Source: an uncultured Aureispira sp.
GTDB lineage: Bacteria > Bacteroidota > Bacteroidia > Chitinophagales > Saprospiraceae
Assembly (NCBI GenBank): GCA_902727865.1
Contig: CACVAQ010000008.1
Location: 1-34,265, forward strand
Length of the DNA: 34,265 bases
Reading direction: 5' to 3'
Shown: positions 1 to 4,911 of the stretch, piece by piece
Position numbering within the stretch: the stretch's first letter is position 1
Layout: each line of letters begins with the position of its first letter
Program-made: the position numbers and the translations under genes
The notes under the pieces: generated by a model
Databases searched by the model: none
What the model was told of the DNA's origin: nothing
Seen by the model: the letters and a program-made list of their open reading frames with translations, nothing else

Positions 1-1
1 G

Positions 2-118
2 TCTAAAATTGGTCGTACGTTCACAGAATATACCGCTACTTTAAAGGCGAATGATTGGAAAACTTCTTCTTCGATTTCCAAGGCTCAAAACAAAGTGCTT
101 GACTTGCTTGTTTTGTAG
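2..118 (+). CDS. C-terminal fragment of an unidentified protein (open at the window's left edge)
   Basis: Open frame from position 2 (SKIGRTFTEYTATLKANDWKTSSSISKAQNKVLDLLVL*) ending in TAG at 116-118; upstream part is outside the window. Confidence 0.55.
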   Translation, partial: SKIGRTFTEYTATLKANDWKTSSSISKAQNKVLDLLVL

Positions 119-181
119 GTAGTTTCTCGCAAAAATTTGTATTTTTATACTTACTTATTTTCATCTTTTAGCCATTATTCA

Positions 182-1390
182 ATGATAATTAAAAAGATTC
201 ATATAAAAAATCATCAACAGTTCAAGGATTTGGAACTGGATTTAACTTATCCTGCTGGGCATGAGAAAGCTGGAGAACCTTTGGATAAGGTTTGTTTTAT
301 TGGACAGAGTGGGACTGGGAAGACTACTTTGTTGGAGGAAATTTGGCTATTCTCAAAAAGGCATAAAGGCGATCTAAGTGAATCTAGGTATACAAATCCT
401 ATTGATTCCGAAAACCTCGAAATTAGCGCCCATGAAAACTATTTTTTTGAAAGAGTAAATAGTGCCTACTTTCATCTTCAAAATACATCTAAGTACTATA
501 ATGAAGAAGCCTCTTACCTGTATGACAACACTCAACTTTTCTCTTTATCCTTAGAGAATAATGGTTGGGAAAATATCCAAGAAGCTGTAGAGAAACACCA
601 ACAAGAAGTAGCTAAGTATTCTTTTGCAATCACTAAAGCATTCCGAAATCAAAACCATCAGCTTGCAGAAGAATATTCTAAAAAATTAGAGTTGTGGGAA
701 AAAGAAAATGAAACCCCATTAAGTGATTTAGCCGAAAATTATCTAAATCCAATTTTAAAAGATTTCGCCTTAGAAGTCAAAACGGAATTAGAATCTATAA
801 AAGATGTTAATCAAATTAACTTAATTAACAAGAACTTAGAGGTAATCCCTCAACAATTCTGGAGTACAGGCATAAAAAACATCATTGCCCGTACAATTCC
901 ACTTTACACCCACAACTTTGAGAACTCCATTATCTGTATAGACGAACCAGAAACTTCTTTATACCCAGATATTCAACGCAAAATAATTGACATTTACAGT
1001 CGCCTAGCTCCCAATAATCAATTTTTCTACGCCACCCACTCTCCTATCATAGCCTCAAGCTTCGAGCCTTGGGAAATCGTAGAATTAAAATTTGACGAGG
1101 AAGGTTATGTTTATAGAGACCAATATTGGGAAGGAGAAAATCATGTAGACAATTATAAATATGACCCAAGGTATTTGAGATGGGATTCTATTTTACAAAA
1201 TATATTTGACCTCGAAAATGATGGTAGTGATGAACGGAAAGAGCTGCTTCAAAAATTTGCCAACTTAGATAATAAGTTAAAAGAACGAAAAAGAAAAGGG
1301 GACAAATTATCAAAAGAAGATCCAGAAGTACAGAGCTTGATGAAAATGGGAAAACAATTAGGTTGGGATACTAAACAGGGGAACGCATGA
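182..1390 (+). CDS. AAA/ABC-type ATPase (PtuA/OLD-like, SMC-related), putative defence ATPase
   Basis: Start placed at MIIKKIHIKNHQQF rather than the upstream ORF start at 137; Walker A GQSGTGKTT, signature-like WSTGIKN, Walker B SIICIDEPETSLYPDIQ, H-loop ATHSP; ATGA overlap with the next gene. Confidence 0.85.
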   Translation: MIIKKIHIKNHQQFKDLELDLTYPAGHEKAGEPLDKVCFIGQSGTGKTTLLEEIWLFSKRHKGDLSESRYTNPIDSENLEISAHENYFFERVNSAYFHLQNTSKYYNEEASYLYDNTQLFSLSLENNGWENIQEAVEKHQQEVAKYSFAITKAFRNQNHQLAEEYSKKLELWEKENETPLSDLAENYLNPILKDFALEVKTELESIKDVNQINLINKNLEVIPQQFWSTGIKNIIARTIPLYTHNFENSIICIDEPETSLYPDIQRKIIDIYSRLAPNNQFFYATHSPIIASSFEPWEIVELKFDEEGYVYRDQYWEGENHVDNYKYDPRYLRWDSILQNIFDLENDGSDERKELLQKFANLDNKLKERKRKGDKLSKEDPEVQSLMKMGKQLGWDTKQGNA

Positions 1391-2067
1391 GAAAAATTGA
1401 TAAGCAATGCAACTTATCTACGGTTTACAAAATATGGGAATCGAACTTAACAGGCGATCATCCTAGTTATAGCCATTCTACTACAAAAAAGCTGCACTAT
1501 AATAGTATTGTGATGCAATTACTATCTAACCAAGATGGGTTGTGTGCCTTTACAGAAGAAAGAATTTGCCCTAACAATGACAATACCTATTCTGATAAGA
1601 ATTGGAAAAATGGCATTTATAAGAATCCTAAACCTGATATTTCTGGAGATTTAGAACATTTTAACGCTGATCTTAAAGAAAAAAAAGGATGGCTTTGGGA
1701 CAACTTTTTAGTTGTATCTTCTTTTATCAATCGTAAGAAAGGAACAAAAGAAGTTGACGCTATTTTAAAGCCAGACGATGTCAATTATGATGCATCCAAA
1801 ATGCTTAACTATAATCCTACCACTAACCTTTTCTCGCCACACACTGAATTAACAGACCTAGAGAAAGGTAGAGTCCAAAAAATGATTGACACCTTAGAAA
1901 TCAACAACGGGTTAATTGTAGATAAAAGAGAACGTTTTTTAAACAAAATATTTCTTTTGTCAGAACGTGGTGTCGATTTAGAAATAGATGAATTTCCAAC
2001 CGCTTACGAAATGACGAGCATCCTAAAAGCAACTGATTCCGAAGGTTCTATTTTAGACAGTTTATAA
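1387..2067 (+). CDS. HNH-like endonuclease (TIGR02646/PtuB-like fold)
   Basis: LCAFTEERI ... GDLEHFNADLKE ... WLWDNFLVVSSFINRKKG ... DTLEINNGLIVDKRERF matches the layout CAYCE...EHFxPK...WxNLlpsCxxCNxxKG...tixiLxLNxxxLxxxR; translationally coupled to the ATPase. Confidence 0.65.
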   Translation: MRKIDKQCNLSTVYKIWESNLTGDHPSYSHSTTKKLHYNSIVMQLLSNQDGLCAFTEERICPNNDNTYSDKNWKNGIYKNPKPDISGDLEHFNADLKEKKGWLWDNFLVVSSFINRKKGTKEVDAILKPDDVNYDASKMLNYNPTTNLFSPHTELTDLEKGRVQKMIDTLEINNGLIVDKRERFLNKIFLLSERGVDLEIDEFPTAYEMTSILKATDSEGSILDSL

Positions 2068-2081
2068 TCAACTTCAATTAA

Positions 2082-2747
2082 ATGTTCCAACACAAAAAAT
2101 TCTCCCAAGACCTCAAAACGTTCAAAGCACACTACCTAAATCAAGAGAAAGTAGACCAAGCATTAATCCAACAATACTTGGTAGATTTAGCAGCGATCGA
2201 CTTAGGTCAATTCCAGACAGATTCGGCTAAAATTGCCTTTTGGGTAAATGTCTATAATGGGCTTACAAATTATTGGGTCATCGAAAAAGGCATTAAAAAA
2301 AGTATGCTAGAAAAGCCCTTCCTAGTGATGTTTTCTAAGGTAGTTATTGGAGGGCATCGTTTTTCTTTAGACGATATTGAACATGGTATTTTGAGAAAAA
2401 ATCGTCGATCCTTGTATAAATTCTGCAAGCAGTTTTCAAAACGAGATCCTCGGCAGGCTTTAATCGTCGAGCAGTTGGATTATCGCATTCATTTTGCGCT
2501 TAACTGTGGGGCAAAATCTTGTCCTGCGATTGCCTTTTATGATAAAGAACAGCTAGAACAACAGTTGCAAATGGCAGAAGAGAGCTTCATTGAGCAAGAG
2601 TTTTTAGTCAACGACACAGAAAAAACTATTACTTGTTCCAAAATTTTCTGGCTGTACAAGAAAGACTTTGAGCAAATTTATGTCAACGCTCCTCAATATA
2701 AAGATTACAAAATCAGTCATCTAAAATATGATTTTAGCGTGCATTAG
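2082..2747 (+). CDS. DUF547 domain-containing protein
   Basis: AKIAFWVNVYNGLTNYWVI ... FSLDDIEHGILR ... DYRIHFALNCGAKSCPAI are characteristic DUF547 blocks. Confidence 0.85.
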   Translation: MFQHKKFSQDLKTFKAHYLNQEKVDQALIQQYLVDLAAIDLGQFQTDSAKIAFWVNVYNGLTNYWVIEKGIKKSMLEKPFLVMFSKVVIGGHRFSLDDIEHGILRKNRRSLYKFCKQFSKRDPRQALIVEQLDYRIHFALNCGAKSCPAIAFYDKEQLEQQLQMAEESFIEQEFLVNDTEKTITCSKIFWLYKKDFEQIYVNAPQYKDYKISHLKYDFSVH

Positions 2748-4056
2748 AAGTCGTCGAATTTAGCTCAGAAATTCCCAAAGCCTCCAACATCGTCTTCGCC
2801 TTCAACAAACACTCTTCATATTCTGCCTCAGGTTCCGAGTCGTAGACAATCGCTCCGCCAACTTGAAACGACAAATACGCTTTCTCGGCATTGTACAACA
2901 GAGAGCGAATGACCACATTAAAATCAAAATCGCCATTGGGCTCCACATAACCGACCGCTCCAGAATAGAGCCCCCGTTTGCTTTTTTCGTACTGCTCAAT
3001 CAGCTCCATACTAATCACCTTCGGTGCGCCAGTCATTGAGCCCATCGGAAAAGTAGCTTCCAGCACATCGACCCAATTTTTAGGAGCTTGCAGCGCTCCC
3101 ACGACCGTTGAAATCATTTGAGAAACCCGCTCAAAGCCATAAATACCAAACAAGTCACTTACTTTTATCGTCCCTGTTGTACAGACTTTCGTCAAATCGT
3201 TTCGCACCAAATCTACAATCATCACATTCTCTGCTTGATCTTTGATACTATTTTTAAGTTGTGCTTGCAATATTTGATCTTCTTCAAGACTCTCTCCCCG
3301 CTTAATCGTTCCTTTTATCGGTTGTGAAATCAATTGCCTTCCCCGCTTGCACAAGAATCGTTCAGGACTTCCACAAAGCAAATAATGTTTTTTTAGTTGA
3401 TAATACGTAGCAAATGGCGCCTTCGCTATTTGGTTCATTTTATTAAAAAGCGCCAAGGGATTTAAGTCTATATTTTCCGCAAAAAACTCTTGGCAAAAGT
3501 TCATTTCATAGGTATCGCCATCAATAATGTGCTGGCGAATTTTCTGAATTATCTTAAGGTATTCTTGTTTAGAAAGTCTTTGTTGGATTGAAATATCAAG
3601 GTGTTCAAAGTCCTCCACATTCTTACTAAATCCATTGATCTGCTCCCAAATAACGGCAGGCGCTTCTTTTTCAGATAAGAGTTCTACCGTTCCGTTGTTA
3701 TGAAAAAGAAATAGATAAGTCGGCACAAAAAAATACAACTCAGGAAACGCCAAAGAATCTTTATTTTCCGAGCTTAATGCTTCGACCTCATTTTTTAGAT
3801 CATAACTCAAATGCCCAAACAACCACGCCTTATTTTCTTTGGCAAAAGATTGCAAGGCGTCAAACGCTGTTCCCGAATGCGCTACACAAAGCTCTTTTTC
3901 AACACCTACTGCAATCAAACAATCGTAGGCACTGTATTTATCCATCTGATAATTATTACTATCTAGACAACAAATAACGTCTGACTGCTGCTGCGCCCAA
4001 TTTAAGATTTGATTTTTGATGGATCTTGTTTCAGTAAGAGAGGATATCATGATCAT
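2734..4056 (-). CDS. pabB: Aminodeoxychorismate synthase component I (chorismate-binding)
   Basis: DGDTYEMNFCQEF, SPERFL, PIKGTIKRG (K as in PabB rather than the A of TrpE PxAGT), MIVDLVRNDL, FPMGSMTGAPK, GAIVYDSEPEAEYEE. Confidence 0.9.
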   Translation of the reverse strand: MIMISSLTETRSIKNQILNWAQQQSDVICCLDSNNYQMDKYSAYDCLIAVGVEKELCVAHSGTAFDALQSFAKENKAWLFGHLSYDLKNEVEALSSENKDSLAFPELYFFVPTYLFLFHNNGTVELLSEKEAPAVIWEQINGFSKNVEDFEHLDISIQQRLSKQEYLKIIQKIRQHIIDGDTYEMNFCQEFFAENIDLNPLALFNKMNQIAKAPFATYYQLKKHYLLCGSPERFLCKRGRQLISQPIKGTIKRGESLEEDQILQAQLKNSIKDQAENVMIVDLVRNDLTKVCTTGTIKVSDLFGIYGFERVSQMISTVVGALQAPKNWVDVLEATFPMGSMTGAPKVISMELIEQYEKSKRGLYSGAVGYVEPNGDFDFNVVIRSLLYNAEKAYLSFQVGGAIVYDSEPEAEYEECLLKAKTMLEALGISELNSTTSNAR

Positions 4057-4077
4057 AAAGCATTTCTTGTCTAACGT

Positions 4078-4110
4078 AAAAAAGCTACCTCAAATGAGGT
4101 AGCTTTTTTA
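4078..4110 (-). terminator. Rho-independent terminator-like hairpin, bidirectional, downstream of the glmS-DUF4290 unit
   Basis: aaaaaagctacctc-AAAT-gaggtagctttttt, perfect stem flanked by A/T runs. Confidence 0.8.
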
Positions 4111-4131
4111 ATTTTTTATAAACGTCCAAAC

Positions 4132-4911
4132 CTAACGTTTTTTATTATTACGTAGATTTTTGTTGTTATTTTTATTTAGAGAAGCTCTTCCCCTAGTATT
4201 TTTATGCTTACTCTTAGAAGCACTTCTACTAGAAGTTTTCTTAGCCTTAGAGTTCGTGTGACGACTTGGCTTCGTTCTACTAGATGAATTATTGCTTAAA
4301 CCACTGTTACCGCCCGTTTTGTTCTTGCGAGGAGCCACTAAGGAATCTATATTTGTTCCAGGAGGGACTTCCAATTCACCTTTTGCTAATTTAGCAAATT
4401 CTTGAAAAATCACTTCATCGTTGACATTTTCTCGATTCCAAGTTTTGTAAGACATTTTCATATAAGCAGCAATCACGGCAATGTATGCTTCTTGTTTCTC
4501 TTTGTCTTCCATCCCCTTCGCCTTCTCAATCATTATGATAACATTTCGGCCATAATGACGTAAGCGCCTCGTCTTTTTAGGATAAGCAACGTGGTCTGGT
4601 TTACGTTTTGTTCTTGCATCAGGCAAATTATCTGGAATATCTATATCCAAATCATAATCAGCCATTTTAAGTACGTGAGACCATACTTTTAATCTATAAT
4701 CATCTACATTTCTAGTATGCGGATGCATAGACATAATCAAGCGGACTATTTTTTCAATATAAGCTTGACGCTCTTCTCTATCTTCTATCTTCTTAGCTTG
4801 ATTAATTAAGTTTTGGGTATTTCGCCCATATTCACGAATAAACAATCCGTCTTTTTGGGTATTATAATCAGCCATTTTTTTAGCTGAAGGTGTTCTATAG
4901 TCGTTATTCAT
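4132..4911 (-). CDS. DUF4290 domain-containing protein with basic low-complexity C-terminal tail
   Basis: MADYNTQKDGLFIREYGRNTQNLINQAKKIEDREERQAYIEKIVRLIMSMHPHTRNVDDYRLKVWSHVLKMADYDLDID block. Confidence 0.85.
   Translation of the reverse strand: MNNDYRTPSAKKMADYNTQKDGLFIREYGRNTQNLINQAKKIEDREERQAYIEKIVRLIMSMHPHTRNVDDYRLKVWSHVLKMADYDLDIDIPDNLPDARTKRKPDHVAYPKKTRRLRHYGRNVIIMIEKAKGMEDKEKQEAYIAVIAAYMKMSYKTWNRENVNDEVIFQEFAKLAKGELEVPPGTNIDSLVAPRKNKTGGNSGLSNNSSSRTKPSRHTNSKAKKTSSRSASKSKHKNTRGRASLNKNNNKNLRNNKKR

Follow-up and report, generated by a model that had tools for sequence, protein, structure and literature searches.

A gene for an SMC/ABC-like ATPase and a gene for a small HNH-like protein stand side by side near one end of a contig from an uncultured Aureispira species, and raise the question of whether they form an anti-phage system and, if so, of which kind. 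An initial annotation of the 34,265-nucleotide stretch analysed here (contig CACVAQ010000008.1, hereafter the window) had proposed a Septu-like pair of PtuA and PtuB, possibly of a distinct subtype. We examined this proposal by profile searches, structural comparison, and comparison with related loci.

Organization of the gene pair

The ptuA gene (182..1390, forward strand) starts with the ATG at position 182 and encodes an ABC/SMC-like ATPase of 402 aa, and its TGA stop codon (1388-1390) and the ptuB start codon, an ATG at 1387, overlap in an ATGA arrangement. The ptuB gene (1387..2067, forward strand) encodes a protein of 226 aa that is an HNH-type nuclease by profile. PtuA carries GQSGTGKTT (aa 41-49), CIDEPETSLYP (aa 252-262), and ATHSP (aa 284-288), with intact Walker A (aa 41-48), signature (STGIK, aa 228-232), Walker B/D-loop (aa 252-262), and His switch (THSP, aa 285-288), while PtuB carries EHF (aa 90-92), WDN (aa 104-106), and INRKKG (aa 114-119). 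The ORF list and translations thus agree with the frames, overlap, and motifs of the initial annotation.

Because the window begins at the contig end, the left neighbor, an SH3_3-domain gene outside the system (1..117, forward strand), is represented by its 3' end; the gene is whole (3503-4783) in the orthologous locus L005, from a related uncultured Aureispira metagenome-assembled genome (MAG). Between this gene and ptuA lies a 64-bp leader (118..181, forward strand) with about 92% identity to L005. A consensus promoter scan of positions 1-2800 returned sites only slightly above shuffled sequence and none in the leader. The right neighbor, also outside the system, is a DUF547 gene (2082..2747, forward strand; Pfam DUF547, 7.5e-35), and no further defense gene was found in the window.

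We gathered 13 pairs of the same clade, including that of the window, from Saprospiraceae, other Bacteroidota, and one Campylobacterota MAG. In all 13 the ATPase and HNH genes are adjacent, co-directional, and in the same order, with gaps between ptuA and ptuB of -17 to +12 bp. Gene-neighbor conservation, which the initial annotation had named as a check, is therefore seen in 12 other genomes, and since both frames and their order are conserved there, the pair is real well beyond chance.

Assignment to type I Septu

The best PADLOC match of PtuA is the PtuA model PDLC00274 (E=7.3e-69), alongside matches to Pfam AAA_15 (6e-24) and AAA_21. PtuB matches 18 PADLOC models, of which 17 are PtuB models (best PDLC00351, 5.9e-11) and one is HNH_I-A (4.2e-10), and a Pfam search with PtuB matched no family. 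PADLOC PtuA and PtuB matches were also obtained for 7 of the 13 clade pairs, each scanned singly. The HMM comparison that had been suggested for this pair thus came out as expected for the PADLOC models but not for TIGR02646, where PtuB scores 29.8 bits against a curated cut-off of 52.15; for NF041761 it scores 28.4 against 150.

The AlphaFold2 model of PtuA has a pLDDT of 69, low at aa 61-126, and its nearest PDB chains are the PtuA of retron I-A and of E. coli Septu (probability 1.00, TM about 0.46), the TM value probably being lowered by flexible and badly modeled parts. For PtuB, a prediction from a 7-row alignment reached a pLDDT of 46, and the HNH fold is thus taken only from the profile comparison: hhalign of the clade profile against zinc-bearing PtuB gave a probability of 98.6% (E=5.4e-16) and brought H91, N106, and N115 into register with the HNH positions. 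PADLOC, fold, and profile comparisons therefore agree that this is an ATPase and HNH pair of the PtuA/PtuB kind.

Further matches of PtuA, to AriA models (1.5e-22) and AbiLi (1.6e-16), might point to a pair of the PARIS (AriA and AriB) or OLD-like kind. PARIS shares with the window an ABC ATPase partnered with a nuclease; its effector, however, is a TOPRIM protein, whereas the partner here matches PtuB/HNH models, and with the PtuA1 models scoring far better (7e-69) we regard such an assignment as hardly credible. We instead assign the pair, with a probability of roughly 0.88, to a stand-alone, type I Septu (PtuA/PtuB) system with a putative anti-phage function.

Type I Septu (PDLC00274 and the PtuB1 models) resembles the window pair in its two-gene ATPase and HNH operon with no third gene, in its motifs and profiles, and in its patchy spread. 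Unlike it, the window's PtuB is distant from every PADLOC PtuB model and has lost zinc cysteines, and its PtuA belongs to a sub-lineage with a variable insert and LDLTYP.GH.K.G.PLDKVC before Walker A. The suggestion of a distinct subtype therefore holds for PtuB, which falls in its own clade without these cysteines, but not for the gene content, which is plain type I, nor for PtuA, which the PADLOC model fits well. The ATPase is indeed short, as had been remarked, yet no domain is missing: its length reflects a variable insert that ranks with the shortest in the clade.

A PtuB clade without the zinc knuckle

Where ordinary PtuB has CxxC and then C..CN, the window's PtuB reads CAFT and SSFIN, so that C53 is kept, T56 stands in second place, and the second pair is wholly gone. 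In the alignment of the clade, H91, N106, N115, and C53 are invariant (13/13), the second cysteine of the first pair and the whole second pair are absent throughout (0/13), and a cysteine occurs at position 61 in all but one (12/13). Judged by these residues, PtuB of the window is a protein with the HNH catalytic layout and without the HNH zinc knuckle. The four other ATPase-HNH pairs of the window's genome (on contigs C93, C35, C190, and C80) retain the zinc cysteines, and so do most of the relatives retrieved with two PADLOC PtuB models. When 66 PtuB-like proteins were placed in a tree by a quick method, the 13 formed one side of a branch with an SH-aLRT of 99. A literature search returned nothing relevant on zinc-free PtuB.

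A zinc-free PtuB is nevertheless not unprecedented, because the PtuB of E. coli ATCC 25922, the structure of which is solved (PDB 8ee7), has lost these cysteines too: its second cysteine (in LCCYSE) and second pair are missing. The ATCC 25922 system (PDB 8ee4, 8ee7, 8eea, and 8sux) is likewise stand-alone, and its PtuA is matched in fold by that of the window with a probability of 1.00. Its PtuB, however, lies on a separate, long branch among zinc-bearing proteins, away from the 13, and a direct profile comparison with it gave no significant match (8.6%). From this placement, the cysteines have probably been lost more than once, independently in ATCC 25922. At the ATCC 25922 locus (L041, 3208-5333), RefSeq annotates ptuA as a pseudogene with a frameshift and gives ptuB a late start; the ptuA frame as we read it runs uninterrupted for about 465 codons, and structures of the proteins have been solved.

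The absence of three of the four zinc cysteines in all 13 proteins, together with the weak scores against PtuB models, could also be read as degeneration, with PtuB having lost its nuclease activity along with the zinc site and serving as a regulator or antitoxin-like partner of PtuA. We consider this quite improbable, as the H, N, and N residues, unlike the cysteines, are invariant across a deep clade, and as the ATCC 25922 system, whose PtuB has lost the same cysteines, has been reported as DNA-targeting (in a statement quoted in PMC11555353). We therefore keep to the reading of PtuB as a nuclease, and assume from its conservation that the domain would be stable and active with one zinc cysteine of the four.

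In the PtuA tree, 12 of the 13 fall in one clade (100/99), while the zinc-free PtuB of L007 is paired with an ATPase of another lineage, which suggests that the nuclease can switch partner. In L007 (66-3627) the pair is preceded by the end of a DUF3696/NsnB-like ATPase gene and by a gene for a 313-aa protein with no Pfam or PADLOC match, possibly making this a small defense island. A decayed second zinc-free PtuB gene, with stop codons and no recognizable PtuA, was seen at L060 2371-2694 (G247:C2), in a genome that also carries the intact pair L058.

Regarding the window's genome (G000), the four other pairs are Septu-like (L009, L010/L003, L011, and L012, in the contig order given above), and the ATPase on C80 is incomplete in the locus examined. 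In the same genome, a gene for a HEC-01A-like ATPase lies amid nucleotide-sugar genes together with a small partner gene (L002, G000:C139 26973-27179). G011 and G870, genomes from a single genus of the family, have 14 HNH_I-A-like places each, which is unusually many Septu-like nuclease genes.

A hypervariable segment behind Walker A

Directly after Walker A, PtuA contains a segment (about aa 56-125; 344..556, forward strand) that cannot be aligned between the window and L005, which are orthologous loci in two sister species. Both genomes are MAGs, and the frames are intact in both. DNA identity between the two is mostly 80-95% over the leader, the remaining ptuA, ptuB, DUF547, and pabB, and drops to 15-25 of 60 bases, with gaps, at ptuA codons 55-120 or thereabouts. 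At the protein level, identity is 51/55 before the segment (93%), 11/70 within it (16%), and 229/277 after it (83%). The loci L008 and L052 show the same pattern (91%, 21%, and 67%), and across the clade 61 to 195 residues separate Walker A from the conserved Trp that comes next. We found nothing relevant in the literature searched on a hypervariable Septu ATPase.

Two origins of this segment were rejected: a frameshift, since nucleotide similarity on either strand amounts to 14-base chance matches, and slow drift, since the flanking DNA is mostly 80-95% identical. The left edge of the segment is sharp and its right edge graded, which fits either recombinational exchange or fast diversification with indels. 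Its variability suggests a recognition region under diversification. We tentatively propose, as a possibility somewhat short of an even chance, that PtuA of this clade carries an exchangeable cassette of about 60-195 aa, swapped or quickly diversified at one locus while the rest is conserved, which would choose the phage signal that fires the zinc-free HNH nuclease.

Insertion and spread of the pair

In six congeners (L018-L023) the SH3 and DUF547 genes are direct neighbors, the DUF547 gene starting 18-64 bp after the last SH3 codon that could be aligned; the leader is missing from all six, as part of the inserted segment. The pair is carried by only two of nine genomes of the genus. By this comparison, it is a late, horizontally acquired insertion between the SH3-protein and DUF547 genes, which run in the same direction, and is best explained as having entered in the ancestor of the two Aureispira-like species. 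The empty sites between two unrelated flanking genes support the earlier description of a module set in a housekeeping segment, and a vertically inherited pair with a known non-defense role, the alternative named there, is not what was found.

The empty sites also bear on whether the pair is the effector half of a type I-A retron (Septu type II) whose reverse transcriptase (RT) and msr-msd RNA were lost or lie just outside. Retron Ec78/Eco7 (type I-A), like Septu Ec-B88, has an ATPase and HNH effector pair, and the window's PtuB matches HNH_I-A, with weak matches also to the retron Ec78 PtuA and PtuB models. However, ATPase_I-A fits PtuA far more poorly (1.8e-13) than PtuA1 does, retron PtuB keeps CAYCE and the later cysteines, and, whereas the retron has an RT and RNA, no RT gene was found in the window or around L005 and no Rfam match was obtained. 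As the empty site indicates that ptuAB alone was inserted, with no RT, a retron remnant is largely refuted, and we hold it to be very unlikely. A stand-alone Septu pair is thus retained.

Across the clade, the GC content of the pair is below that of its own locus in every case (13/13), and the nearest substantial upstream gene is co-directional in 11 of 13, a count that skips a short, spurious-looking antisense frame in L052 and, for the window, relies on the truncated 3' end of the gene and on L005. One copy is in the Campylobacterota MAG. Other sites are after a trpB-like gene (L058), after pntB (L057), and, on the same strand, between the fumarate/succinate dehydrogenase flavoprotein and iron-sulfur genes (L055, 2424-7535). 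No integrase was noticed beside the pair. A search for phage- or plasmid-borne PtuB copies found none, and one with PtuA in phage and plasmid sequences retrieved only two distant plasmid matches. The pattern fits a defense cargo that spreads horizontally and is transcribed from host operons. The L055 copy sits inside a central metabolic operon. In L052, the stretch separating ptuA from a RecD2-like helicase gene holds short tandem repeats (2385-2838; the frame reads as repeated ARANKIV).

Proposed mechanism and implications

In E. coli Septu B88, Walker A or B mutants of PtuA and HNH mutants of PtuB lose immunity, and the system cleaves tRNA-Tyr (PMC13096335). AriA, a related ATPase, keeps its nuclease caged until a phage protein binds (PMC11455837), and PARIS serves us as a working analogy for control. 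By analogy with these systems, PtuA, a head-only ABC/SMC-type ATPase, would oligomerise and hold PtuB silent in uninfected cells under the control of ATP. A signal made by the phage or by the infection would alter PtuA, probably via the aa 56-125 segment near the nucleotide pocket, and the altered PtuA would release or activate PtuB. PtuB, as an HNH nuclease with H91, N106, N115, and one metal, would then cut nucleic acid, either tRNA or phage DNA, of which we prefer neither for the window pair, and its domain would work without the structural zinc of ordinary PtuB. Cutting would halt phage production, likely by abortive infection.

Zinc-free PtuB systems will escape annotation that depends on the cut-offs of TIGR02646 or NF041761, and the zinc-free PtuB clade shows that the knuckle cysteines are not required for membership in the family. 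In PtuA, a segment scrambled between sister species within an otherwise well-conserved ATPase points to a possible trigger-binding site.
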